A DNA stretch of 24,742 bases from a virus. The first letter of the stretch is position 1, and each line of letters opens with the position of its first letter. Both the position numbers and the translations under genes were made by a program. Below are positions 1 through 24,169 of this stretch, in pieces. The notes below the pieces were generated by a model, which was given only the letters and a program-made list of their open reading frames with translations, was not told the DNA's origin and did no database searches. Location of the stretch: positions 1 to 24,742 of IMG/VR virus record IMGVR_UViG_3300026097_000100. One strand, 5' to 3'.

Positions 1-3000
1 ACAAGCCGTCTGGGTTGAGCTCACTGCCTACCACATAACTTGTGGTGCTGAAAACTTCGCCTTCGCCTGTGTATTGTGCAGGAGGAACATCGCTTTCTGT
101 CCATTGGTAAACATCTACACTGCTACCAGGAAACAGTTGACCCCAGCGACGTGCTTTGTAATTGAGATCATCCTGGTGATAATCAATGTATCTCACATTG
201 CTGGTATCCCACCACATTTCGCCGACATGCTCATCTGCCCAATATTGCCCATTGTTATTACTTGCGCCAGTATTATACTGAGCAGGGTCTAACCCGCTAA
301 TATAATCAATGTTTTGTCTTGCACTGCCCAGTATCTTGCCTTGCAGTGGATCAATATAGTCAAGATATCTAGTAATGCCGCCACGATCTTTGTTGTATGT
401 AAACACACTGTTGAGCAACTGTATATCCACAACTGTTTGTTGACTGTAGATTTTTTGCCATGCAATGTTTTTACCAGGATTGTTAAACTGTGCTACTCTG
501 CCAAAGTCTCCTACACTATCGCCTAAGTCATCCTGTGGTGACCCTACTAGCAGCACGCCATCTTTGTAGTTTATACTGGTACCATATAGATCTAATGCTC
601 TTTGATTTTGATCAAATATCTGTTGCCCAAACACAAACTTTCCTGGATTGTTTACACTTGCATTTGCACTGAGTAGGAAATCGTAAGTGTACGCAACACC
701 AGATCTCTCTAATGTGTCTTCGAAACTGGTTGCACCACTGTCAAACACTGTAGTGTTGTCGTCATAGGTTACTGTTTTTACAGCAGCACTGTCTGGTGCG
801 CCTACAACTAATGTATCTGCATTTACGTCAATGTCCACACTTGATCCAAAATGCCCGAATTCAACGGCAACAGGAGGTATCATAGTCTGTGTATATGACA
901 TTGGCTCAAATCCAATATCAGTCCAGGCATCACCCAGTCCCGGGAGTACCTGTAGCTTTATGAAATCATCAGCGGCACTGGCGTTTTCTAAACTCAGTAA
1001 TAGTCGCTGATTGCTAACTGATGCTAAGACATTAGGAATATCGGCTGTGTTGATATCGTTGGCATACAGATGCAACCAACTGCTCTCTTGCCAGTACACC
1101 GTATCTGTTATAGCAGTACCAACAGGCACTGTTTGTGTGCTCAAATAAATGTCTGCGCCATCTATAACAAAAGTTCCACTATTCCAAGAGATTGCACTGG
1201 TCCAGGTAGTAGGTGTGCTTACCAGTACATCATAGTTGTTAATACGGAGACTGGTGCCTGGAGTAAGCGCAGGGTCGCCCACGGTGCTGATTATATTACC
1301 ATACAATCTTGCTTGATTGGTCCACCTATCCACACTGCCCGACTGTGGTGCTATTGTGCTGTCGTTTGGCATGCCAACATAAACACTACAGTTGGTACCA
1401 CATTGAACTACAGCACTGCCAAACTTGCCCAGTCTCTGATTATTGTTGCTTTGAATACTCTGCATCATTTGGAAGTCATTGGTTTCAATTTCCAGTATAT
1501 CTGCCACAGCAATGACTACATCATCATCTAGTGTTATCACACTGCCATTGACAGAAAATTCACCATTGTTAACAAATCCATCGTCTCTAATTAAAAATTT
1601 GTTGTTTAACTTTACAGTAACAGGCCCTGTAGGTGTTCTTTGTACTGCAAACTCTTTGGTTGTGGTATTAGAAAGCTGGAAACGTTCTACACTTCTGTCG
1701 ATAATTTGCACACTGCCTGCAAAGTCTACTAATTCAGGATCATCATCCGGAGCACCAATTATAATTTGGCGACCATCTGTGGTAGTACTAATTGCATGAC
1801 CAAATCTTGGATTGGTACTGCTGTCGTCAGTGATGCCAGCATAGGTAAAGCTATCTACCAGTGTCCAGTATGTTGAACTACTAATAATCACTGTTCCCGA
1901 AACACCTGATGTAAACGTTATAGAATCTGTACTAGAATTATAAGTGTAATCCTCAAAAGGTCTTTGCAATACATCATTGACAATGACATTAAAACTGTAT
2001 ATACTATCCGCAGTGTACAGATCTTGAATACTAAAAGGACCAATGGTGCTTGTTGCTGGTTGATAAGTTTTGCTTTGTTTTCTGCTGATGCGGATCTCGT
2101 CGCCGTCGTTTGGCGCAGTGGTAAACACAACCTGTCCGCTACCGTATACCCAGTCTGTGCCTGCAACAGTTGGTATGTTATTTTTAAGCACGCTAATCTG
2201 TTCACTGCCGATGCCAAAGTCGCTGCTGTCATCATCTACAACAATAACAGCACCGATATCAAAAGTATTATTTGAACCATTGCCTGTGAATTCTACAACT
2301 TGATTTTGTACATCTACTCTGTTGTATGCATAAACTGTGTCTTCGCCAGGAGCACCAACATACATCCAACGATCGTCAGCACTGATTGCCACGCTATATC
2401 CAAATTCACTGTCTGTTTCTGTTGTTGATTCAAGCAGGCATTGAGTGTTTCTATAGCTACCGTTGTCAGGGTTTCTTCTTATAACAAAAGCATAGCCTCT
2501 GTTGTTTAAACTGTCTGGAGCACCGGCAATTGCATATTCTCTTTCGCTAGCATCCAAACTGGTTCCATATCCAACCAAATCATCTGTGTCTGGTGCAAGA
2601 ACACCTGTTTGTACATATGTTGTTGGCGTGGATTTGTTATAGGTAAAAACTCCACCTTTGAGGCCGTTATATCCAGGTGACCCAACCAGCCCACCTTGCT
2701 TGTTAAGTCCTTGTGCAATGCTTGTGCCATATAGCGTGTCAGTGTCGTCATCATTAGGGTCAAGACTAACAGACTCAGTGAACGGGTTGGTTTTCTCATA
2801 CTGTGCCCAATGCCCAGTACCGTCGTCGTCTACCCATGCTTTGCTACCTGCTACCAGTTGGTTTACAAAACTCAGTTGAGAAATATCACTGGCTTGCGAA
2901 ACTCTTACACTTTCTAACACAAATGCCACGCCAACAGCAGTAATTGTGGTTGTGTCGCCTGGCAAAGATAGGCTCACAGTGACAGACTGTATGCTCGGTG

Positions 3001-6000
3001 TACTAGCTACTTGGTATGCACCATCGACATTTTGATCGAAATTTTTGATTAACAAATTACTGGTTGTATTCAGCCCGTGTGGCCCGTCAAACAGTATAGT
3101 ACAAGTTCCGTTAAGGTTATCTGTGACCTGAGTTACTAATACCGGTAGCAGATTTAATGTGTACACATTCCAATCATAGGCGTTGTCTTTTGCTACCCAG
3201 ATTGTGGATCTACGTACCAGTTCGTCCAATTGATTCACTACAGAAGACAAGTCATTCACATCAAACACTTTGATATCAACTTCGTCCCAGTTTACATATC
3301 CTGCACTCGGCAACACAGTATCTGGCTGTCCTAATGTGAATTCAGGTAGTATATTTGTGCTGGATATCTTGTAACTCTGTTTCCAGATATTGTCAACCAG
3401 TATTGATTGATCAGCAGTGCTCTCAGTTTGAGGTTCAATGATGCTTACAGTACTAGGATTAGAAAACAAGTTTTCCTCAATCAAACGCAGTTCGAAATAG
3501 CGTCGGTTAGCATTTGCACCATAGGTTGCACGTTGTATTGCCCAATTTTCAGTGATTTCGTATTCTGCAACTTCTTTATTAAGGTTTGCTAAACTGAAAA
3601 TTTCTGCACTTTGTAGTGTGCCTTTTGTGCCCAAAAACTGTTTGTATAGGTTAACCTGACTGATGTCATCAAGATTTAAATTTTGCATGTACTGTCTTGG
3701 ACGGAATCCAATTAGGCCAAAACCTAACAGGTCTGCATCTCTTTCAAGATTGGCAGTGTTGGTGTCATAATAGTTGCGTATGAGATCGGCTTTGGTTGCT
3801 GCATTAGGCAGTAGACCTTTTGTAATCATAGTATAATCGCTTTTGATCCACACTGAGAAGTCAAAAGTTTCATTGGGCGGAATTATTTCTGCAGCACTCC
3901 AATATGCATTTTTATACAGCACAATCTCGCCTTTGGTGTAAGCTTGATTTGGTTGCCATTCCTGCACATTGTCTTGGTTGAGTATAAATCCTTGAGCATC
4001 CAGTGTGCCGTTCCACTCAAAGGTTGTGTATCCATTTACTAACAGCCTGCCTTGTCTTGCACCTGTGCCTGGATCATAAATTAAATCATTAAAAATACTG
4101 GTATTGTCCAACACTATCAAGTGTTCGTACGCTGTGAACTTGGCATTTAACAAATTGAATGTGTTATTATTAAAACTTCGCAGTGTAAGTGTGTTATCCA
4201 ATCTTTCTACCACAAAATCATCTGATTTGATTGGGTTTTTGTTTTGATTCAACAACACATTATTAGCGTCAGGCGCAATCAAACTTTCAGCAACAGCACT
4301 GTCCTTGGTTACTTGAATTTGATCTGCACCCGGATTAAGATTTATCATACTGCCGACTGCCCAATTGCTTTGCGCCCAGTATACGAACTCTTGCGCCATT
4401 TGGCTCCAATTCAGTACAATATTGTTTTCAACACGTTCAAAAGTCATACCCTGGCCATCTAAGAATCGACCGTAACTCACAAGGAAATCGACTACTGTGC
4501 TTTCTGTGCTAAAGGTGTACCCGTAGGGCACTCTGGTTACACTGGTTTTAAAGTCTTTTGGTATACGATAGGTATCGCTGCCCACAGTAAAATTAGCAAA
4601 GTTCCCATTGGGAATACTTGTTAATATTTCAAAATATGGGTTAACTGTGCTGTAGCCATACACCGTATACCCATTATCAGTGCGCTGTATCATCACGCTA
4701 CTATAAGTGAGTTCACTGAATGCTGGATTTTTGTACAGTAACAATTGATAACTTTCATCAGGTAACAACAAACTGCTGTTCAAACTGTTCGGTGAGCTTT
4801 TTTCTGTAAACAGTTTAAGATAGGTCTTATCACTGAATCCAGCCATTCTGTATGCTAATCTTACATCAATGTTATTAAGTCGCTGCTCCAGTAAGGCAGT
4901 GCTATCCAGTCCTAGTATTCGGTTATAATCTACAATCCAGTTAATGTAACTGTTTTTTGCTGTGCCATCGCCATACACCGACAACTGCGCAGGGTCCAAT
5001 CTGAATCTATTGTTAAGCAGGTATTGGCCAAAGTCCGTGTTAAACTGGTATTCATCTCTATCTGCAAACAAACTGAAATATTCTGCAGGTTTAGTTAATG
5101 CTAATAATCTCTGTAGAGCAAACACAAAACTGCTGCTTCTGCGCCATGCTGTTTCCACAGTGCCTTGATCACCGAACAGCCAACTCTTTCTAAAACTGTT
5201 GCTGTCATACTCTCCTACAACAACATCAAATGGAGCTAATAGATTGCCTTCGCTGTCCACAGGCAGTACGTCAAGCAATTGTGGTCTAGCAAATTCCGAC
5301 ACAGTTCTAGGACTGACTGGATCGTTAATTAATCCGTCTCGCAAATTTTCCCACAGTACTAAGTTACCACTGGTATAAGGTGCTGGACCGTACTGATTCT
5401 CCCACCAGTCTGGTTGTTCTGTAAGTCCTAGCATTTCCCACGGACGAGTATGAGGGCTGTCTGTATCGTATAGATAATCATAGATAGCTCGCCAGTTACC
5501 TAATAGTGGAGTGCCATCCAGTTTGTTTTCACTGTTGCTGTAGTTCCAGGTAAACTTGTTGTTTGCATCAAATGTTTGCGAGTTGTAAGGTAGTTTGTTA
5601 GTGCCTACCCACTTGAGAAAACTTTCGCTAAGTATTTGATTTACTTCGCTTAAATCGTAGTCTGTGCTTCGAAACTGTCCTGGAATAATATCTTCTGGTT
5701 CAATGGGCGGATCATATCTATCGGCAACTTTGATGTTATTGTAAATGCGTTTTTCAAATTCCAACAACACATCATCACGCAAGTCGCCAAATGACACAGT
5801 TTTGCTGCCATCATGTCCAAGAATCACTTCAGTGGGTGTTACATAGGTATCATCTAGATATTTTTCGGGCAGGCTTGCTGCAAATAACCCTAAACTTGCT
5901 GGACTAGGAGGAGCGTAACTGCCGTAAGTTTCGCTGTATTCTCGAATTTTTAGTACATCGCCATTGGCAAGTGCAACATTTACTGTGATTCTAGGACCGT

Positions 6001-9000
6001 CGGTGGCTACTGTGTATTCGTGTCCATCAGCTAACAGTATTTCGTCGTTAAGGTAAACCAATAAACCTTGATAGTTTGCAGATGTAAAATTATAGCTACG
6101 CAGTGTATCAAACACGTTACTGCTTATAGGAGTAATTGTATAAACAGTTTCGTCGTATGTCTCTCCACTAGCCAGTGTGTCGCTCCAATAGAAAGGACTG
6201 TTTTGGTTTTTGGCAATGTTGATGTTTTTGATTGCTTGATCGAGAATATCAGCTGTGGTTTGATTCTGCCAATCGTTCTTTGCCACTTCGTCCAAGATTA
6301 AATTTTTATATTTTTCGTACTCGTTGCCTGCAAATTCTATAGCAGTAAAATAATCAAATCTGCTGTCGTTTAGGAAAGTGCCAAGCATGGTCATCGGCGA
6401 ACTCTGTTGCAGTATGGTTCTGCCAAAGGGCACAATATCGCCTAGATCTCTTGTGTTGTTCGATCCGTGAATTACACCCTCAAACTCACTAGCATTTTCA
6501 CAGATAGTACCGTAATGGTTTCTAATTGTACCCAATGTAAGTTCATCAGTGGTGGTGTTTATAGCATTGTTTTCCAAGTTGCCGGGCACTGTGTAATAGG
6601 CAACCTGGCTGGCTGTATTACTAAGCACACGCACCTCAACAAGATCACCTTGATTGGGTGCACTGTCAAATTCTATTTCAGTAACGCCACTACTGTTTGT
6701 TGTATACGAATAGGTGCTGGGCAGTACAAAAACACCATTTACATAAACCTGCACAGGCACATCAGCACTATCGGCAATAACCTCTACATCTAAGATGAGG
6801 TTATTGCCCGTGTATTCAAAACTAAAGCTTTGTCGTGACACACGTTGATTGTTGCTGGTCTGCCACCCTATAAGCTCCGCAAAATCAGTTCTATTGATAT
6901 ATTGTCTAACGTAACCTGTGCCGATGTTTTTGTCAATACTGGCAGTGTTTTCAACAAAGGTAAAACTGTCAGTGTTAATGTTGTTTTCGAAAACAATGTC
7001 GCCCACATTGTTTATTGACAAGTACTTGAGCGGCTGGCCTAACACAGAGTCATCTTGTCCGGATCCTAGTGCGTAACTGAACAGTTTGGTTCCTGTAAAA
7101 TCCGAACTTGGGTAAACTGTGTTGTCTACAAAACTAAACCCATTTTCATCAAATATATCAAACAGTGGAGCTTGATTAACACCGATCTTTTCTTGTGCTA
7201 ATATCCAATCTGAACCGTCATATCGATAAGTTTTTCCTTGACTGGTTACCCCGCTTTGTACCAACACAGTTTGATCAACCTCGGCACCCGGGGTATTGAT
7301 ATCTGCAGGTTGTAGATCAATCACTGTTTCACTGCTGTCATCAAATTCTACAAAATTAACAAGATAAGTTTTGTTTCGCACTGCTGGATCTGAGTCGTTA
7401 GCAAAAATTACTCGTGTGCCTTCTGCAAAACTGTAGCCATCTACACTATAACCAAGTGTACCGTTAATGTTACTAAATGCATCTGTTTCTCTAAAGTCGA
7501 TAATATTGATAGGCGCAATGCTTTCAGTGCCAGAATTAAATAATTTAATTCCAGCTTTAAATTCTATTACAGGTCTTTGTGCACGTTGATTGTTGTCAAT
7601 TACAGGCACAGTATTGTTGTATCCAGCTGTGGCATTGATTACATCAATGTGGAACCATCTGTTACTGCGTGTCCACGCATTGAGATCTGCACTGGCACGA
7701 TTTATGGTAAAATAATCCTGTTGTGTAGGTGCATTTAAACTTTCCTCAAATCCGCCTACGTCAAATCCAACACTGTCAAAAGGCACTGTGCTACTTTGTG
7801 TATACGACTCTGGAGTTACGAAACTATCAACAGGTAACAGCTGAATAGAGGAACCAACACCTTCCACATAATATTCGTTGCCGCTGTAGTTTGCTGGATC
7901 AGTCTCGCCTTCAAATTGAACTTTCAGCCCGTTAGTGAACACAACTCCATTTGGACTGGTATAGTTAGAGGCACCCAGTATTTCATCTATGTCTAACACC
8001 TGATCGCCGCTTTGGTCTACCAGTTTAATAACACCAAAGAAATCTGGGTTGTTTGCATCTTGATAATAAAGCACATCAAGGTTTGCAGTAAGCAGTGGAA
8101 TCTTTTCGTAAAGTCCTTCGCTGGTTTTGTAAAACTGTGTGCTAGCAAACTGTGTGCCGTAATTGATGTTTACCTTGTTAAGTTGATCAATTTCACGAAT
8201 ACTATTCAATCGCATAAACGGATTTTCTCCGTTTTCGTCGTAGACGAATTCTATCTGCCACACACTGTATTTTGTTGCATCATCCGTGAGGATCTCACTT
8301 TGATCAAACGGAATATCATCAAATTCGGCAAGATTGCTGTCAAACTGTGTTGTTCGGACCCAGCCACCGTCTTCGCCAGGAATTGACTCAGTAAAAATCA
8401 CAGTGCGATTTTCTAAATCGCTGATGCCGTCAATCCCGTTGTATTGATCTAAAAATTCGCTTACATAGATGTTGTTAATTTGATTGTATTTCAAACCAGT
8501 GACAAGGTCCACTGACCCAGATTCCGGCAGTTCAAAGAAAAAGTTTTGTGCGCTCTTGCTCGGCACATTGAATGTTATGGTTCCGAGGTCTTCGCCGTTG
8601 TTTACTACGCCCAGCACATCTCGTGAACTTTGACTGTTTTGACTCAGTGTACCGTCGGCTCCGGGCACGCTTTGTATAAAAAATGGGTTACCAGTTTGTG
8701 ACAGTTCAAACGTATAAGCACCTTCTCTAACAAGTGTGATTGTGGGCAATGTTCCGCTAATATCGCTGAATGTGTATCCACTAGAGGTTCTGGCAACTTC
8801 AAAATCATCTGTTAGTGGAACATTTGTGCTGCTAACGTCTACGTTGTCAGGACCTTCGGGTAGCCAGTAGTACTGAGCAAAGTTTACAAATTTGTCAAAG
8901 TCAACAAAAGGATCCCAACTGTAAAATTCGCTATCAAACAATCTATCGTGGCGTTCAACATTAGCACCTTTTACTCTTAATCTATCAATGTATCCAGGAT

Positions 9001-9271
9001 ATGTTAATGTATCTGTGATAGTATTGGTATTGTTTTCCAAAAACACAAGAGCAGGTTCTAATTGATAATTAGCTCTTTCTGTAGTAGGTTCAACAATGTA
9101 GTTGTCGTTGGGATTTACACCTGGTCCGACGGTTCTTCCGATGTAACCTTGAGTTGGTTTAAGCTTTGGCTCTTGTACCAGCTGATCCAGTGTACTGCTG
9201 AGAAACTGCTTGTTGGTTTCAGTTTGAAAAATTTCAGGTAAGAAATCAATGGTTCTTATTCTGTTAGCCAA
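1..9271 (-). CDS. Giant baseplate/tail structural protein, C-terminus beyond window
   Basis: I read this frame from 9271 to 2 and found no stop: 3090 codons, with the C-terminus outside the window. The TTG start directly follows the gp6 TAA, has GGAG eight bases upstream, and gives (M)ANRIRTIDF, matching the Met-Ala start of all six upstream genes. Features in order: N-terminal FLPEIFQT (about residues 10-17); an aromatic segment with EFYSWDPFVDFDKFVNF (about 92-141); PHTRPWEMLG (about 1272); DADLLGFGLIGFRPRQYM (about 1845-1862); WVDDDGTGHW (about 2146); then seven FG-GAP-like repeats (about 2180-2930). From memory, similar segments occur in giant virion proteins of T4-like marine phages, but no alignment was possible. 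Its place after gp6 is that of the T4 wedge gene 7, yet T4 gp7 has only 1032 residues and I see no clear match to it. A role in the baseplate periphery or host contact is inference. Confidence 0.9.
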   Translation of the reverse strand, partial: MANRIRTIDFLPEIFQTETNKQFLSSTLDQLVQEPKLKPTQGYIGRTVGPGVNPNDNYIVEPTTERANYQLEPALVFLENNTNTITDTLTYPGYIDRLRVKGANVERHDRLFDSEFYSWDPFVDFDKFVNFAQYYWLPEGPDNVDVSSTNVPLTDDFEVARTSSGYTFSDISGTLPTITLVREGAYTFELSQTGNPFFIQSVPGADGTLSQNSQSSRDVLGVVNNGEDLGTITFNVPSKSAQNFFFELPESGSVDLVTGLKYNQINNIYVSEFLDQYNGIDGISDLENRTVIFTESIPGEDGGWVRTTQFDSNLAEFDDIPFDQSEILTDDATKYSVWQIEFVYDENGENPFMRLNSIREIDQLNKVNINYGTQFASTQFYKTSEGLYEKIPLLTANLDVLYYQDANNPDFFGVIKLVDQSGDQVLDIDEILGASNYTSPNGVVFTNGLKVQFEGETDPANYSGNEYYVEGVGSSIQLLPVDSFVTPESYTQSSTVPFDSVGFDVGGFEESLNAPTQQDYFTINRASADLNAWTRSNRWFHIDVINATAGYNNTVPVIDNNQRAQRPVIEFKAGIKLFNSGTESIAPINIIDFRETDAFSNINGTLGYSVDGYSFAEGTRVIFANDSDPAVRNKTYLVNFVEFDDSSETVIDLQPADINTPGAEVDQTVLVQSGVTSQGKTYRYDGSDWILAQEKIGVNQAPLFDIFDENGFSFVDNTVYPSSDFTGTKLFSYALGSGQDDSVLGQPLKYLSINNVGDIVFENNINTDSFTFVENTASIDKNIGTGYVRQYINRTDFAELIGWQTSNNQRVSRQSFSFEYTGNNLILDVEVIADSADVPVQVYVNGVFVLPSTYSYTTNSSGVTEIEFDSAPNQGDLVEVRVLSNTASQVAYYTVPGNLENNAINTTTDELTLGTIRNHYGTICENASEFEGVIHGSNNTRDLGDIVPFGRTILQQSSPMTMLGTFLNDSRFDYFTAIEFAGNEYEKYKNLILDEVAKNDWQNQTTADILDQAIKNINIAKNQNSPFYWSDTLASGETYDETVYTITPISSNVFDTLRSYNFTSANYQGLLVYLNDEILLADGHEYTVATDGPRITVNVALANGDVLKIREYSETYGSYAPPSPASLGLFAASLPEKYLDDTYVTPTEVILGHDGSKTVSFGDLRDDVLLEFEKRIYNNIKVADRYDPPIEPEDIIPGQFRSTDYDLSEVNQILSESFLKWVGTNKLPYNSQTFDANNKFTWNYSNSENKLDGTPLLGNWRAIYDYLYDTDSPHTRPWEMLGLTEQPDWWENQYGPAPYTSGNLVLWENLRDGLINDPVSPRTVSEFARPQLLDVLPVDSEGNLLAPFDVVVGEYDSNSFRKSWLFGDQGTVETAWRRSSSFVFALQRLLALTKPAEYFSLFADRDEYQFNTDFGQYLLNNRFRLDPAQLSVYGDGTAKNSYINWIVDYNRILGLDSTALLEQRLNNIDVRLAYRMAGFSDKTYLKLFTEKSSPNSLNSSLLLPDESYQLLLYKNPAFSELTYSSVMIQRTDNGYTVYGYSTVNPYFEILTSIPNGNFANFTVGSDTYRIPKDFKTSVTRVPYGYTFSTESTVVDFLVSYGRFLDGQGMTFERVENNIVLNWSQMAQEFVYWAQSNWAVGSMINLNPGADQIQVTKDSAVAESLIAPDANNVLLNQNKNPIKSDDFVVERLDNTLTLRSFNNNTFNLLNAKFTAYEHLIVLDNTSIFNDLIYDPGTGARQGRLLVNGYTTFEWNGTLDAQGFILNQDNVQEWQPNQAYTKGEIVLYKNAYWSAAEIIPPNETFDFSVWIKSDYTMITKGLLPNAATKADLIRNYYDTNTANLERDADLLGFGLIGFRPRQYMQNLNLDDISQVNLYKQFLGTKGTLQSAEIFSLANLNKEVAEYEITENWAIQRATYGANANRRYFELRLIEENLFSNPSTVSIIEPQTESTADQSILVDNIWKQSYKISSTNILPEFTLGQPDTVLPSAGYVNWDEVDIKVFDVNDLSSVVNQLDELVRRSTIWVAKDNAYDWNVYTLNLLPVLVTQVTDNLNGTCTILFDGPHGLNTTSNLLIKNFDQNVDGAYQVASTPSIQSVTVSLSLPGDTTTITAVGVAFVLESVRVSQASDISQLSFVNQLVAGSKAWVDDDGTGHWAQYEKTNPFTESVSLDPNDDDTDTLYGTSIAQGLNKQGGLVGSPGYNGLKGGVFTYNKSTPTTYVQTGVLAPDTDDLVGYGTSLDASEREYAIAGAPDSLNNRGYAFVIRRNPDNGSYRNTQCLLESTTETDSEFGYSVAISADDRWMYVGAPGEDTVYAYNRVDVQNQVVEFTGNGSNNTFDIGAVIVVDDDSSDFGIGSEQISVLKNNIPTVAGTDWVYGSGQVVFTTAPNDGDEIRISRKQSKTYQPATSTIGPFSIQDLYTADSIYSFNVIVNDVLQRPFEDYTYNSSTDSITFTSGVSGTVIISSSTYWTLVDSFTYAGITDDSSTNPRFGHAISTTTDGRQIIIGAPDDDPELVDFAGSVQIIDRSVERFQLSNTTTKEFAVQRTPTGPVTVKLNNKFLIRDDGFVNNGEFSVNGSVITLDDDVVIAVADILEIETNDFQMMQSIQSNNNQRLGKFGSAVVQCGTNCSVYVGMPNDSTIAPQSGSVDRWTNQARLYGNIISTVGDPALTPGTSLRINNYDVLVSTPTTWTSAISWNSGTFVIDGADIYLSTQTVPVGTAITDTVYWQESSWLHLYANDINTADIPNVLASVSNQRLLLSLENASAADDFIKLQVLPGLGDAWTDIGFEPMSYTQTMIPPVAVEFGHFGSSVDIDVNADTLVVGAPDSAAVKTVTYDDNTTVFDSGATSFEDTLERSGVAYTYDFLLSANASVNNPGKFVFGQQIFDQNQRALDLYGTSINYKDGVLLVGSPQDDLGDSVGDFGRVAQFNNPGKNIAWQKIYSQQTVVDIQLLNSVFTYNKDRGGITRYLDYIDPLQGKILGSARQNIDYISGLDPAQYNTGASNNNGQYWADEHVGEMWWDTSNVRYIDYHQDDLNYKARRWGQLFPGSSVDVYQWTESDVPPAQYTGEGEVFSTTSYVVGSELNPDGL

Positions 9272-12200
9272 TTACTGTACTCCACTGTTATCAGCAGTTC
9301 TGAGCTGACTGCTGGTTAATGCATCAATCACTTCAACATCGTTGACTGTTGCTGCATTTACAAAAATCTCATCTGGCTCGCTGCGAATCTCATACAGGTC
9401 GCCAAAACTCTTAAGAGGGTCAACAGGCACTAGCACAACACTGCTGATAATGTCGCCAAGCTGATCGTGTAAGTATGCGCTTAATTCACTGAAGAAAAAG
9501 GTATCGCCAAAATCCCATTTGTCAATTTCAAAATAGGTATTCGTTGCAGCAACTGTGCGACTTTTAATTTCACTTACGCTGGCTGTGCTATTGACGTTTT
9601 TAATTACCTTTATCAGTGCACGTAGGTCTGTGTCTGCTTTCTGTCCAAACAGTGGCTTGAATCTTACACTGTTTAGTATCACATTGTCAGATATCATTTT
9701 GTACTGATTCAACCCGGCATAGTCCGCTGACAGTTCATTGATTGTGGGTCTTGCTGGTTCCAACACTGTGTTGGTGCTGTCTTTGATATAGCGTTGATAG
9801 GCTGAATAGTACGAATTGGTCACTAAGTATATATCAATGATATTGCTAGTGCCTGGATCAATTCGTCGGCTCAAGGGACTGTTGTGCCTGTACTGGAAAT
9901 ACAGATCTTGTCTTCCAGTATATGCTTCATAACCAGTGGCACTGTTTACAGTTCTAATTCCAGTGCTGCTTACAGAAAGTTCATAAAAATCTTCTTCGGC
10001 GGTAGCATAAAATATTTGTTCGTCTGCGTATTCACTTTTTGCCAGTTCAATTGCATCTAGCGTGGCTAAATCAGTGACCACAGTGCCAGTAGCTAATGGT
10101 ACATATCTTTCTAGATTATCAAAGTCTGTTTGTCTTTGAAGGAAAACCAGTTTATTATTTGGATTGGTTTCAGGAGCAACTAGTGTGTCAAAATAATCTG
10201 GGTCATCAGGAACAGCATCATTGTCAAAATCACCGTAACTGATTCTCACTCTAAAGTCGTCCACAAAGCCATCGCTTTCAGCTGGTTGCCCAATGATATC
10301 CAATTTTTCATCGCTGTTTAACGGGCTACTGGAATCTGGCCGACTGTTTGTTTTGAGAACATTAATAAAATCATTTACAACAGTGCCCGTTTTAGGATCA
10401 AACACCTGTTGACTGCCGTCATAGAAAAATCTAGTTTCCAATATGCTTGCAAAAAATCTTTGCAAACTACGACTGGTTACAGTGTATGTCTCACCATCTG
10501 TTTCAAATTTAACCAGCCAACTGTTGTCAAGGTTTGTGCCACTGGTATTTTGTGCACCAGCAAAGCTGAATGTGTTAGCAGGATTGAGATTTGTGTTGGT
10601 TATAATATACCATGTGCCAGCATCGTTATCATAACCAATGCCAAAATCTTTGTAAAGTTGTATTTGTTCTGTGATGCTCTGCTCAAGTGTGCTTGGTAAA
10701 TCTGTAACAAAAATTGGTATAACTTGTGTAGGCACTGCTAGTGTAGGAATAAAGGTGTTCAAACTTACAGGCCCTGTGCCATCTGTGAGATTTCCTGTGC
10801 CAAAGTTGGTACCATCCAGGGTTAGATCATTTACTGTTGCCCATAGCACAGTTTTCTCTTCTGGTCCAGAGGGCGTGCCTAACTGCAATCTGTTGTTGCG
10901 ATCAAAAAAGAAACCAGTTGGAGGTACAAATTTTACAAGTGCATTTTCTATGATATATTTTTTATTGTCGCTGGTAGTAGGACCGACTGGAGCAGGCTCT
11001 CCACTTGCTACAAATCTAAAGTAACCAGTGGTAACATTATTTTGACTGGTGCTTTGTACCCAATCAAGATTTAACACAGCAAGGCTAGGTCGTGTAAAGT
11101 TTTCAAAATAGAACTCTTGCATGCCTCTTTCGGCAACTGCAGGTTCCAGTTGATTTTGCACCACATTGTTAATATCATTTGTGTCCACAAATGTAAACGT
11201 GAAGCTGGGATTTAGATCCTGCTCGTAGATCAGGCCATCGCTGGCAAACACATTTGTTGAACTGTATTTTCCTGTGACATCCACAAGATCTAGATATCTA
11301 CTGGTACCAATCGAACTTCGGTTTATTGCCTTGCTTTTGATAATAGTGCCAAACAAGGTGTATGGAAGATTGTTGTAGTCTTCACCATTGACCATGCGAT
11401 TTTGTGTGTAGTATCTAGCAGGAGCTCGTGTTTTGATATCCGCAATGTTTTCACGACGATCAGCGTTGCTCACTGGTTGACTTAGCTGACAGGTAAATGT
11501 TATGGTTTCGTTGCGTCCACTTCTGCTCACATAGGTAAAGCTGAGGCTTACATTTTGCATGTCCTGTGGATTGATAATGTAGCTTAATCCATTACTGGCT
11601 CTTACGTAGGTTCTAAACTGCCCTACAGGAATTGTACTGAACACTCCGTCGCCAAAATTTAAGTTGATTTGATCGTTTGCTCTGCTAGCCACACTAAAGA
11701 ACTTGCGCTCGCCCGGTTCCAGTTGATTGCTACCGCCAGCATAGATGTTGTCCACTTTGGTCCATTCTTCTTCTACAGCATTAGCATCGTTGACTTTGTA
11801 CAGCCACACATCGTCGTTGTTAATACCTTCGATGTTCACATTCACTGTTCTATTTGCAATTCTTTCAGCAAGATTAAAGTTCTGTGCTTGTAAACTGCCT
11901 TGCTTAAAGAAAAAGAAAAATCCAGTGTTAGGGCTAGCATACCCCTGTCTATCATTTCTGTACAGAAAGTTGAATTCACCGTTAGGCTGAGGACTTGGTT
12001 CATAAACAAAATCTGCATCTTCAGTGGTTGCACTTACAGCTTCAAACGCCATGTTGGTGTTGTTTACAGTGCTCGTAAATGGCACTACCGGAAGTAAGCC
12101 TTGAATAAGATTCAACGTGTACTGTTCTGTGTCTGTGCCCAAGATGTTTTTGCTTGCAACAGGACGGCCAAATCGTTGGCTGTCCACCATTGCTGCATTT

Positions 12201-12679
12201 ACAATCACTGTAAACTGTTCTAGCCATGAGGTATTAACAGTGTCGTTCCAGTTTACCACAACACTGCTTAGATTGATGCCGTTATAGTCCACAACATTTT
12301 CAGTTGTGCTTACGCTGGTTACTTTTAAAAAGCCGTTTGCTTCTTCGTTTCTTTTGGGAGTATAACCTACAAGATTGGCAAGACGTACAACACTATCACG
12401 TCGTTCAGCAGTGTCTAAAAAATTCTCTCGGGTATTAAGGTCATTGCGGAAGCTCAGTGCCTGGCCCATGAAAGCCATGAGATCCAAGAGTGCTACAAAC
12501 TCCGAACTTTCAATATAGTCATTGAAACTTTCTGGATAGTAGAGTCGAATATAGTCTACAAAACTTTTTCTCAGTGTTTCAAAATCGTAGCTTTGAAAGT
12601 CTGCTTCTCTATAGGTTTCGTAGATGCGTTTCCAGTCTTCAACGCCAAATATTGCGGTTTGTCTTGTTGTGTTTGCCAT
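9272..12679 (-). CDS. gp6: Baseplate wedge protein gp6
   Basis: gp6 forms the inner ring of the contractile-tail baseplate, linking wedges around the hub. The first 120 residues are very typical of T4-like gp6: SYDFETLRKSFVDYIRLYYP, ESSEFVALLDLMAFMGQALS and NTRENFLDTAERRDSVVRLA. Residues of about 320-440 look like the baseplate J-like region, with NLNFGDGVFSTIP and, further on, NRMVNGEDYNNLPYTLFG. The C-terminal part (LLxxVRFKPLFG-like, about 990 onward) is followed by a segment on end-to-end contacts in the family. At 1135 residues it is much longer than T4 gp6 (660). The ATG is preceded by GGAAGG about seven bases upstream, and a late promoter element lies 18 bases before the start. The stop is followed without any gap by the TTG of the giant gene in the same frame. 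Confidence 0.93.
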   Translation of the reverse strand: MANTTRQTAIFGVEDWKRIYETYREADFQSYDFETLRKSFVDYIRLYYPESFNDYIESSEFVALLDLMAFMGQALSFRNDLNTRENFLDTAERRDSVVRLANLVGYTPKRNEEANGFLKVTSVSTTENVVDYNGINLSSVVVNWNDTVNTSWLEQFTVIVNAAMVDSQRFGRPVASKNILGTDTEQYTLNLIQGLLPVVPFTSTVNNTNMAFEAVSATTEDADFVYEPSPQPNGEFNFLYRNDRQGYASPNTGFFFFFKQGSLQAQNFNLAERIANRTVNVNIEGINNDDVWLYKVNDANAVEEEWTKVDNIYAGGSNQLEPGERKFFSVASRANDQINLNFGDGVFSTIPVGQFRTYVRASNGLSYIINPQDMQNVSLSFTYVSRSGRNETITFTCQLSQPVSNADRRENIADIKTRAPARYYTQNRMVNGEDYNNLPYTLFGTIIKSKAINRSSIGTSRYLDLVDVTGKYSSTNVFASDGLIYEQDLNPSFTFTFVDTNDINNVVQNQLEPAVAERGMQEFYFENFTRPSLAVLNLDWVQSTSQNNVTTGYFRFVASGEPAPVGPTTSDNKKYIIENALVKFVPPTGFFFDRNNRLQLGTPSGPEEKTVLWATVNDLTLDGTNFGTGNLTDGTGPVSLNTFIPTLAVPTQVIPIFVTDLPSTLEQSITEQIQLYKDFGIGYDNDAGTWYIITNTNLNPANTFSFAGAQNTSGTNLDNSWLVKFETDGETYTVTSRSLQRFFASILETRFFYDGSQQVFDPKTGTVVNDFINVLKTNSRPDSSSPLNSDEKLDIIGQPAESDGFVDDFRVRISYGDFDNDAVPDDPDYFDTLVAPETNPNNKLVFLQRQTDFDNLERYVPLATGTVVTDLATLDAIELAKSEYADEQIFYATAEEDFYELSVSSTGIRTVNSATGYEAYTGRQDLYFQYRHNSPLSRRIDPGTSNIIDIYLVTNSYYSAYQRYIKDSTNTVLEPARPTINELSADYAGLNQYKMISDNVILNSVRFKPLFGQKADTDLRALIKVIKNVNSTASVSEIKSRTVAATNTYFEIDKWDFGDTFFFSELSAYLHDQLGDIISSVVLVPVDPLKSFGDLYEIRSEPDEIFVNAATVNDVEVIDALTSSQLRTADNSGVQ
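9280..9283 (-). promoter_or_regulatory. Ribosome binding site deciding the TTG start of the giant gene
   Basis: GGAG lies eight bases before the TTG at 9271, inside the last codons of gp6. No ATG is near. The site, together with the Ala second codon (GCT), is the reason for choosing this rare start. Confidence 0.65.
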
Positions 12680-12720: not shown

Positions 12721-12729
12721 GCAGTTTAT
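12712..12729. repeat. Inverted repeat at the gp25 stop codon
   Basis: ATAAAC, loop GGCGCA, GTTTAT: a perfect 6-bp inverted repeat covering the gp25 stop (12726-12728). There is no T-rich run on the gp25 strand directly after it, so it is at best a weak terminator; it may instead protect the end of an upstream message. Confidence 0.45.
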
Positions 12730-13100
12730 ACGTAAGAGGCAGATTGACTGTTTTCGTCGAATCGAATGATCAAGGTTTCTACACCTACACCAGCAACTGT
12801 TTCTACTTCTAGCTCTACTAGCACGCCGTTTTCTTCACTATACACTGCAATACTGCTCACAGTGATTCTTGGATCGTTGCCGACTACTCTCTGTATTTCT
12901 GCTTCTATGGTCTTGATAGTCTGTGGGCTTTGAGGTTCAAAAATGTAGTTCCAGATGTTGGAACCGTTAAGAGGACGCATCACGCTTTCTCCCTGACGAA
13001 TAGTGAGAGCGTTTAGTAGGTCTCGTTTGATCAAATCAAAATCAGTAAGGGTATAGTTCTTAAACTGATTAATTGTGTTGTATCCGATAAAAGTTGCCAT
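12726..13100 (-). CDS. gp25: Baseplate wedge protein gp25
   Basis: gp25 is the small wedge protein that helps hold the gp6 ring to the sheath and hub in contractile tails; the fold is shared by phage and type VI secretion baseplates. The protein has 124 residues, close to T4 gp25 (132). FEPQSPQTIKTIEAEIQRVV (about 52-72) includes the position of the family's E-P-R-like loop (here E-P-Q), and DPRITVSSIAVYSEENG is the following strand region typical of the family. The ATG has AGGG ten bases upstream and lies 16 bases after the gp5 stop. The downstream gene is gp6, the usual neighbour. Confidence 0.92.
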   Translation of the reverse strand: MATFIGYNTINQFKNYTLTDFDLIKRDLLNALTIRQGESVMRPLNGSNIWNYIFEPQSPQTIKTIEAEIQRVVGNDPRITVSSIAVYSEENGVLVELEVETVAGVGVETLIIRFDENSQSASYV

Positions 13101-13116
13101 GTTGTATTTACCCTAT

Positions 13117-15330
13117 CTATGTACTGGTATACTTTGGTGCAGTGACCTTGCTTTCTGTTACGATGCTATTAGCCGCATCGTCCACTGTACCACGTGACAC
13201 AGTGTTGGTACTAGATGCACTTTGATTGAATCCTTTTATCGACTCAGAAAGTTTTTGATTTGCTAGTTCAACACTGTATTGAGCACTTCTTGCAGATTGA
13301 TTAATTTTAGTAGTGGTGGTTTCATCAGGTGCTGTGTTGTTAATCCACTGTTTTACACTGGTTGCACCAAACTGGCTGGCCGGTTCTACCAATGCTGCTA
13401 TACTTTCTGCACTTTCACTGCCAGTGAGTATGCCTTCTGATCTCAACTCATTGAATCCTGTGGTGTACAAATCAGTCTTAATAAAATCTTGCAGTGCTTC
13501 GTCGCCTAACACACCTGGTAAATTGCTTACACCGTTTTTGCCACTCCACACACTAGTACTCTGTAACACCGTGCTTAAATCACTAACTCCATCCTTAAGG
13601 AAAAATTCAGTAACCCCGGGCTTGAGATACCCAGCACTTTCCAGTTGGGGAGCACTAAATCCGTATTTGCCTACGCCTAGATCATTGCTTATATTGTTAA
13701 AGGCCTGTGGCACGTTGGTGCTTGCTTGTGCTAGCATGCCTGTGATCTGTTCGGGTTGCAAATTACCAATGCTCACATCTACTGGTGTTTGTGTTTCGTA
13801 CTGTTCTGCTGTGATTGCAGTGAACTCTTGATTTTGCACTTGATCCAGCTTGCTTTCTACTTCTGGTAATAATGGCACAGTTTCGCTTTGAGCATATGTA
13901 GTTGTTTTGTTTACCCCGGTGTTGTGCAAGGGCCACGGCTCGTGTGTAGGAGCTCGGGTAACCACACTCTCAATTGCACTGTTTTCCACAGTCCAGCCTT
14001 GATTTTGAACAAATGCAGTGTCTGGCAGTTGTTGTTTTGGTATAGGGGTAGTCTTGGGCACACTGGGTGCTCGTCCTCCATTGAGATCGATACATCCAGC
14101 ACTGAGAGTCATGCCTGACCCGCCTTCCCATGTTCCGGCTTTTTCACTTTCTAAACTTATACTGCCGTCACTTTTAACACCTACAAACTTGTTGCTGTAC
14201 AACAACATGCTGTCGTTGCCTGTTAGTTGCACTTGTTTGGCTTCCATGTTTAGAGTGGTGCCACTGTTGATGTTTACTGCTTGCCCGTTTATGTTTACGT
14301 TTCTATCAGCATGCAAGTTGATATCACCACTTCTGATGTTAACACTGTTAGCCGCATACACATCTACTGTGCCTTCTGCGCCCAATTCCCACCAACTTTG
14401 TCCATTTGCATGACTGATGTAAAGTGTGTCGCCACTGTCGCTCATTATGATTTGATGACCTTTGGCAGTTCTGATTCTAACCAACTGATCATTGCCGTCG
14501 ATGTCGCCATCGTCAAGTACAACACTGTGTCCGCCTTCTCTGCCCACAACTCGCATGCTTTCAGGTGGCACACTGCCTGGATTATTGGCATCTTGATTTA
14601 ATCTAGTTTGCAATGTATCGCTAGAATATCCGCCTTGGTATATCGGTCTACCCGGAGTGCTTATGCCAAACACAGTGCTAGGACTTTCTCGGTAGCTGTT
14701 ACTGCCAATTGTGCCTCTTAGAGGATCATTCAGCAGGCCCTGCTGTAATAATACAAAGGCTTGTACTTGATGTACGGGTTTAGGACTGGCAAAAAATTGT
14801 GGTGCTTGAGTTAGCCCACTGTTGTTGTCGTTGAACTCTACAACAGGCAATCTTTCACTGTTGGCAAAATAAGGACTGCTGTCTCTTTCTTCATTGATCA
14901 CTTGACTGCTGGCACCAATGGCTGGCATCATGTGGTGCGCATCTTCGTTTACTACACTGCCAAGATAGTAGCCGATTGTAGGATCTCCATTGGCAAACAC
15001 AAACAGCACACGAGTACCCACGTCGGGAGGTGTAAACCACATGCCATAGCTGTGTCTATTCTGGACAAACGCACCTTCTGTGCTTTCTGGTGCACTGGGT
15101 TGTGTGCTGCCATAAAACGGCGTGACATAGCTAACAGGAGTCCATCCACTGGGCTCGTTTTCATCTGGACCGCTAAGAAACTCATTGTACACTAACAGCT
15201 TGCCTGTTCTGGTTGTGTCAGTGTTGTTTTTTACAATGCCCACAAAAGGACCAGTTTCGGTGGGTGCACCTCCTGCGTCCAGTTTGTATCGTTTGCTACG
15301 CCCTACACTTTTTTCTATGTTAGTTGCCAT
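13117..15330 (-). CDS. gp5: Baseplate central hub/spike protein gp5, without lysozyme domain
   Basis: This is the trimeric central spike at the tail tip. The N-terminal 200 residues form the OB-fold-type region (PFVGIVKNNTDTTRTGKLLV, later MWFTPPDVGTRVLFVFANGD, which is the VgrG/gp5 signature). From about 270 the sequence runs into the VgrG-like barrel (HSVVLDDGD, IRTAKGHQIIMSDSGDTLYI) and from about 320 to 400 into short valine/asparagine/isoleucine repeats of a beta-helix needle (NSVNIRSGDINLHADRNVNI). T4 gp5 (575 residues) has a lysozyme domain between OB fold and needle. I see no lysozyme-like segment here. About 300 residues after the needle (440-737) are unlike T4 and of unknown role. 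It starts seven bases after the preceding stop. Confidence 0.9.
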   Translation of the reverse strand: MATNIEKSVGRSKRYKLDAGGAPTETGPFVGIVKNNTDTTRTGKLLVYNEFLSGPDENEPSGWTPVSYVTPFYGSTQPSAPESTEGAFVQNRHSYGMWFTPPDVGTRVLFVFANGDPTIGYYLGSVVNEDAHHMMPAIGASSQVINEERDSSPYFANSERLPVVEFNDNNSGLTQAPQFFASPKPVHQVQAFVLLQQGLLNDPLRGTIGSNSYRESPSTVFGISTPGRPIYQGGYSSDTLQTRLNQDANNPGSVPPESMRVVGREGGHSVVLDDGDIDGNDQLVRIRTAKGHQIIMSDSGDTLYISHANGQSWWELGAEGTVDVYAANSVNIRSGDINLHADRNVNINGQAVNINSGTTLNMEAKQVQLTGNDSMLLYSNKFVGVKSDGSISLESEKAGTWEGGSGMTLSAGCIDLNGGRAPSVPKTTPIPKQQLPDTAFVQNQGWTVENSAIESVVTRAPTHEPWPLHNTGVNKTTTYAQSETVPLLPEVESKLDQVQNQEFTAITAEQYETQTPVDVSIGNLQPEQITGMLAQASTNVPQAFNNISNDLGVGKYGFSAPQLESAGYLKPGVTEFFLKDGVSDLSTVLQSTSVWSGKNGVSNLPGVLGDEALQDFIKTDLYTTGFNELRSEGILTGSESAESIAALVEPASQFGATSVKQWINNTAPDETTTTKINQSARSAQYSVELANQKLSESIKGFNQSASSTNTVSRGTVDDAANSIVTESKVTAPKYTST

Positions 15331-18343: not shown

Positions 18344-18643
18344 TTAGAACCCCAGCACTGATTTCAATGTGCTCTTTTTGGGCAGATAAATGTTTGTGCC
18401 TGTGACAAAGTCGTTGAGTGGATCTGTCAAGCTGTTAGGGTTGCGCTGTGCAAATACCCACCATAGGTTGGGTGTGCCATACAGGTCATAGGCCAACAAA
18501 TCTGGTCTAAGATTGTAGGTCTGATTTATAGTAAATCTTTGATCATCAGCTAACTTGGGGATACTGCGGTTGATCATTGGTCCTAGGTATTCGCCCACTT
18601 GCGGTGTAGAGAAGTATGGCGACGTTGATTGATAATCGGCCAT
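18344..18643 (-). CDS. gp53: Baseplate wedge protein gp53
   Basis: gp53 joins neighbouring wedges around the hub. The 99-residue protein has the typical core: RPDLLAYDLYGTPNLWWVFA (about 46-65), comparable to the T4 segment with YGNPQLYWVL, followed by the LysM-like end TGTNIYLPKKSTL. It is half the length of T4 gp53 (196), as expected for a form reduced to the N-terminal conserved core. The ATG overlaps the upstream TAA by one base (TAATG) and has a strong AAAGGAGG nine bases upstream inside the end of the gp48-like gene, so translation is probably both coupled and directly initiated. Confidence 0.85.
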   Translation of the reverse strand: MADYQSTSPYFSTPQVGEYLGPMINRSIPKLADDQRFTINQTYNLRPDLLAYDLYGTPNLWWVFAQRNPNSLTDPLNDFVTGTNIYLPKKSTLKSVLGF

Positions 18644-23715: not shown

Positions 23716-23731
23716 CGCCCAGAGAATGTAT

Positions 23732-24169
23732 ATGGATTGGACTTACAAAGGCGAAATAGTAGAGGAACTACCAGCAGATTGCGAAGGGTTTGTTTACCTT
23801 ATTACCAATCTTGCTGACAACAGAAAATATGTTGGCAAAAAACTAGCAAAATTCAAAACAACTAAACCACCTCTTAAAGGCAAAAAAAATCGACGCAGAG
23901 GCACAGTAGAATCGGATTGGCGTGACTACTGGGGTTCAAGTGATCATCTGAAAGCAGATGTAAAACAATTAGGCGAGGAAAATTTTTCAAGAGAGATCTT
24001 ATACTTTTGCTCCAGCAGAGGCTTGATGAGTTATCTAGAAGCACGAGAACAATTCGAAAGGCAAGTATTACTAACAGACGAATATTATAACGGCATTATT
24101 AATGTCCGTGTAGGCAGCAGTAAAATTCTCAAAGAAGAACTGGGCAAATATCATGGCAAAGAAAAGTAA
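23732..24169 (+). CDS. GIY-YIG-type nuclease
   Basis: The N-terminal pair of motifs is GFVYLI and, ten residues later, KYVGKK, the GIY...YIG strands of this nuclease family. KPPLKGKKNRR is basic and could bind DNA; RDYWGSS resembles a segment common in phage members. Near the C-terminal end, YLEAREQFE supplies the likely metal-binding glutamate. The family includes free-standing homing endonucleases of T4 (Seg genes) as well as repair nucleases. Two ATGs are possible: at 23726 the AGAGA sequence is too close, whereas the ATG at 23732 has GAGA six bases upstream, so I prefer the second (145 residues). No intron or DNA-binding extension is visible, and the gene overlaps the next one by 17 bases. 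Confidence 0.8.
   Translation: MDWTYKGEIVEELPADCEGFVYLITNLADNRKYVGKKLAKFKTTKPPLKGKKNRRRGTVESDWRDYWGSSDHLKADVKQLGEENFSREILYFCSSRGLMSYLEAREQFERQVLLTDEYYNGIINVRVGSSKILKEELGKYHGKEK

Follow-up and report, generated by a model that had tools for sequence, protein, structure and literature searches.

FG-GAP propellers are adhesion modules in animals and bacteria. Among phages, cyanophage S-TIM5 encodes a protein with FG-GAP_2 repeats (AEZ65754, 407 aa), and Agrobacterium phage Atu_ph07 encodes another (YP_009611985, "hemagglutinin"). Both proteins score above the FG-GAP_2 cut-off and have a predicted fold similar to the one described here; each is small and separate, and neither is an insertion. The gene of the Atu_ph07 protein, gp320 (L102:7019-8200), adjoins a tail sheath gene. 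UniProt already names FG-GAP repeats in uncultured phages. The BFVD entry A0A6J5S3H5 (uncultured Caudovirales) is named FG-GAP repeat, and A0A6J5L8L4, from the same source, is the best viral match to our predicted fold (E=1.4e-31) and possibly belongs to the same family; we found no literature description of either entry. Here we analyze a stretch of 24,742 nucleotides from an uncultured virus (IMG/VR record IMGVR_UViG_3300026097_000100; hereafter the window), in which a first-pass annotation had recognized seven FG-GAP-like repeats in a presumed tail protein.

A giant gene in the baseplate operon

The repeats lie in a giant virion-structural open reading frame (ORF), of which 3,090 residues are present and whose 3′ end lies beyond the end of the contig. 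Genes encoding gp53-, gp5-, gp25- and gp6-like proteins are located upstream of it, while genes for a late sigma factor and SbcCD are found on the opposite side.

2..9271 (−): giant ORF (phrog_10938, E=1.6e-282)
9272..12679 (−): gp6-like baseplate wedge gene (phrog_10646, E=2.2e-287)
12726..13100 (−): gp25-like baseplate wedge gene (PF04965, E=3.8e-10)
13117..15330 (−): gp5-like hub / tail lysozyme gene (phrog_13211, E=2e-29)
18344..18643 (−): gp53-like baseplate wedge gene (phrog_7145, E=6.5e-24)

Given these four baseplate genes, the late sigma factor and SbcCD, the window derives from a T4-like phage; we use the group name jumbo phage because contigs of near relatives span 315-344 kb, the window itself being a 24.7 kb fragment. 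By synteny, the giant gene occupies the position of T4 gene 7, directly after gp6 in the baseplate operon. We could not establish homology of its protein to gp7 by profile comparison or by fold (the scaffold model is weak); hhalign against a single gp7 sequence returned a probability of 0.3%. The apparent start codon is a TTG that abuts the stop codon of the gp6-like gene, with GGAG upstream (window 9255-9290). Elsewhere in the window, positions 23726-24169 probably encode a homing endonuclease, for which the top PHROG label, "NAD synthetase", looks erroneous. Isolated phages included no nucleotide relatives of the window, and psbA, a sign of a cyanobacterial host, was absent from eight large contigs.

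At the protein level, window residues 1-146, ~430-2049 and 2943-3089 match PA5oct-like phages, Atu_ph07, SCTP-2 and PBECO4, and phrog_10938 also matches the C-part of L011 (E=3.3e-66). Pectobacterium phage CBB carries a homologue of this scaffold, CBB_236, which was found in virions by mass spectrometry with 21 unique peptides (PMC5259590). Together with the baseplate-gene synteny, this detection bears out the initial assignment to a phage tail or baseplate protein. The structure model of the scaffold is weak (pLDDT 70, pTM 0.49), and no solved baseplate protein matched it. This weak model also matches small chitin-binding domains, and sub-threshold CBM_5_12-like (chitin-binding) pieces occur at window 3896-3961 (residues 1771-1792) and in L011:12572-17254.

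Seven repeats and a predicted beta-propeller

A strict regular expression applied to the 3,090 residues detected exactly seven motifs, starting at residues 2181, 2235, 2290, 2490, 2617, 2808 and 2896 (DNA 2731 down to 536, minus strand), in agreement with the first-pass annotation; neither 2,000 shuffled versions of the protein nor 5,000 of the segment contained a single one. All seven blades were recovered (E from 1e-6 to 8e-14) by a family blade HMM from which the window and its nearest kin had been excluded. Pfam FG-GAP_2 (PF14312) matched at E=1.8e-10, with 41.2 bits against a cut-off of 23 and three stretches passing individually, and the same family was matched in all six members examined. 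With a profile of the S-TIM5 FG-GAP protein, which contains no close kin, the segment scored E=2.1e-7, and the top-scoring one among 200 shuffles reached 0.31. The seven repeats are thus real. The original FG-GAP family, PF01839, to which the first-pass annotation had looked, has no match in the window; by profile, the repeats instead belong to the FG-GAP_2 branch. No PHROG covers the propeller. The parts of the giant protein are as follows.

2786..9271 (−): scaffold preceding the propeller, residues 1-2162 (isolated jumbo phages match at 1-146 and ~430-2049)
2786..2854 (−): left junction hairpin, residues 2140-2162, aligning in the empty-site relatives L133 and L106
446..2785 (−): inserted propeller with extra domains, residues 2163-2942 (AlphaFold2, Foldseek, comparison with L133)
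2675..2731 (−): blade 1, FG...GSP motif
2516..2569 (−): blade 2, FG...GAP motif
2348..2404 (−): blade 3, FG...GAP motif
1871..2314 (−): blade 3 c-d loop insert, about two beta-domains, residues 2320-2467 (DSSP; indels between relatives)
1748..1804 (−): blade 4, FG...GAP motif
1499..1675 (−): blade 4 c-d loop insert, residues 2533-2591 (DSSP of the model)
1367..1423 (−): blade 5, FG...GMP motif; its a-b loop contains an invariant CxxxC
902..1315 (−): blade 5 c-d loop insert, residues 2653-2790, Flagellin_IN-like in relatives (DSSP of the model)
794..850 (−): blade 6, FG...GAP motif
536..586 (−): blade 7, FG...GSP motif
2..445 (−): scaffold following the propeller, residues 2943-3090 (matches PA5oct-like phages, Atu_ph07, SCTP-2 and PBECO4)

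Across an alignment of 67 sequences, the unit lengths are fixed at 19, 18, 19, 19, 19, 19 and 17 residues for blades 1-7, and the glycine of the FG pair is nearly invariant. Both cysteines of the CxxxC in the blade 5 a-b loop (window 1388-1402) are invariant in all 67 proteins, and may form a disulphide or a metal site in the virion protein. Flagellin_IN was matched in the blade 5 insert of two of six members, L002 reaching 21.5 bits where the cut-off is 22.7.

AlphaFold2 modeled residues 2118-2976 with a pLDDT of 90.3 and a pTM of 0.88, and DSSP divided the model into seven a-b-c-d strand units, that is, seven four-stranded blades. The top solved structures in Foldseek were integrin alpha headpieces, with E values down to 9e-10 and TM scores up to 0.60 on the integrin and ~0.3 on the query, the alignment being gapped by the inserts. 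Sequence profiles independently picked integrin alpha-4 as the best solved structure (E=0.02). The integrin-type propeller proposed from the repeat count is therefore upheld by the model, according to which the inserted region is almost certainly a complete seven-bladed FG-GAP beta-propeller of the integrin-alpha type.

The insertion site and its occupants

The propeller had initially been placed in the distal part of the protein. It is in fact internal: conserved scaffold resumes after it, and intact relatives extend far past the point at which the contig ends. Complete relatives measure 4,450-5,110 aa, with one shorter exception (L043, 3,371 aa). The propeller constitutes a block of ~780 residues (446-2785) inside the shared scaffold, and at the same junction L133 has six residues, its left arm aligning to window residues 2138-2162 and its right arm to 2943-3003. 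L106 and the PA5oct-like L007 show an empty-site arrangement resembling that of L133. These alignments indicate that the propeller was almost certainly inserted as one block into the giant virion protein. It is absent from the giant protein of the isolates compared, Atu_ph07 among them, and a tblastn search of INPHARED for propeller relatives yielded nothing except a 38-residue piece of phiL7; bacterial genomes yielded none. Since isolated relatives have no propeller at that spot, the module, which would serve in binding or docking, was probably acquired. A LamG-like reading of the SCTP-2 insert, made by eye, was unconfirmed by Pfam.

At least 426 IMG/VR stretches, i.e., hundreds of uncultured phage contigs, carry the propeller, and from these our scans took 6 and then 80 loci. 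We built a tree of 102 scaffold segments with midpoint rooting, in which two isolate branches are long. The presence of the propeller changes only twice on this tree, a number as low as which was reached in none of 500 label shuffles. A single branch (SH-aLRT 99) unites 80 members, comprising all 79 propeller proteins and one protein without it, L160, whose site is occupied by a YHYH domain (PF14240, E=3.3e-29). In L160:6309-8309, the YHYH domain in place of the propeller is followed by a jelly-roll-looking segment. With two label changes and YHYH in L160, the simplest reading is that the propeller was gained once and replaced once, although loss in other lineages would also be possible. Judged from the sequences compared, the site acts as an acceptor for large modules, being empty, filled by the propeller or filled by YHYH depending on the relative, and it marks a slot for large-domain exchange among jumbo phages. 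A bolder proposal, that jumbo-phage baseplates have a general cargo slot behind the VDxxGxGxW hairpin for unrelated surface-binding domains (integrin-like propeller, YHYH, others) and that the propeller is a main baseplate adhesin of a large uncultured clade, seems to us less likely than not.

Sequence divergence differs between the propeller and its surroundings. In related pairs, the median identity is 70% in the propeller region vs 78-81% in the flanking scaffold. Most long indels fall in the propeller region, as small modules within the inserts, and module indels of 27-53 aa occur in the inserts even between close relatives. The b-c and d-a loops are more variable than the a-b loops. One module of ~40 residues, YTIxxxGTTDFTxIGAxxNxVGxxFxATGAGTGTG, occurs 41 times, distributed over 30 of the 87 proteins at varied positions, in blade inserts as well as the C-terminal part (L003, L005, L067, L015, L079 and others), and may be present in one relative and absent from another; Pfam did not detect it in L002 at E up to 1. 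The scaffold also contains a present/absent module, of 87 residues, after window residue 1332 (L034/L040 and L041/L060), and the proteins that differ in it are ~92-95% identical there.

Candidate functions and comparison with known systems

We lean, with modest confidence, toward the propeller being an exposed host-binding module, a reading that leads the alternatives and is unproven. Propellers of the VCBS superfamily, FG-GAP/integrin propellers included, often bind carbohydrates or proteins (PMC9218822). As such a module, the propeller would stand out from the baseplate and hold a host polysaccharide or surface protein during adsorption, and its variable d-a and b-c loops, along with the swappable inserts, could tune specificity. 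The lower identity of the propeller relative to its flanks, the variability of these loops and the exchange for YHYH in L160 speak for this reading, but any exposed domain would be expected to evolve faster and to have variable loops. We found no glycan or receptor site. Furthermore, that all 87 near relatives sampled retain all seven blades, with one loss among the 80 members of the clade, argues against host binding; the propeller is inherited more vertically and is more conserved than typical receptor-binding domains.

The same constancy sustains a serious rival, which we regard as quite possible without being probable: the propeller may be a structural platform on which a fiber, a whisker or a neighboring wedge subunit docks, making no host contact. 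Seven blades and unchanging motif lengths throughout the clade, vertical inheritance in 79 of 80 members, and the strong conservation of the a-b loops of blades 3 and 4, as for an internal interface, would all suit such a platform. However, empty-site relatives such as L133, with its six residues, keep both scaffold flanks, so that a baseplate can be built without the propeller, and in L160 the unrelated YHYH domain substitutes for it. Because relatives provide a clean empty site, the role of the propeller, be it host binding or docking, is testable by a defined deletion.

Two further explanations fare far worse. Calcium-dependent adhesion with true integrin mechanics might be expected from the integrin alpha chains being the best solved match by both profile and fold, but it is largely refuted and very improbable: the calcium sites once suspected in the loops did not materialize, DxDxDG-type loops being absent from the window and loosely matched in just 7 of 86 relatives, and the repeat is of the FG-GAP_2 type rather than PF01839. 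The mobile modules nested in the inserts might suggest that the repeats are carried along as an evolutionary passenger, a mobile domain under no selection for function, but this idea is refuted in practice by a reading frame uninterrupted in all 86 sampled relatives and by blades conserved across deep divergence.

Compared with the integrin alpha-chain propeller (PDB 4wk0, 9ckv), the propeller of the window shares seven four-stranded blades and FG...GAP motifs, whereas it has no calcium loops, is built from a short repeat of the FG-GAP_2 type, carries large domains in its c-d loops and sits in a phage virion protein. Compared with the jumbo-phage proteins CBB_236, PBECO4 gp538, Atu_ph07 gp180, SCTP-2 gp140 and those of PA5oct-like phages (phrog_10938), the giant protein has the same scaffold in the same slot after gp6; unlike it, those proteins have no propeller, and their insertion site holds 6 to ~1,500 residues of different sequence. 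Our literature search, which mostly did not extend to subscription journals, found no report of an FG-GAP propeller in a phage baseplate protein. FG-GAP repeats are known from a few phage proteins, while a propeller built into a baseplate protein is apparently new.
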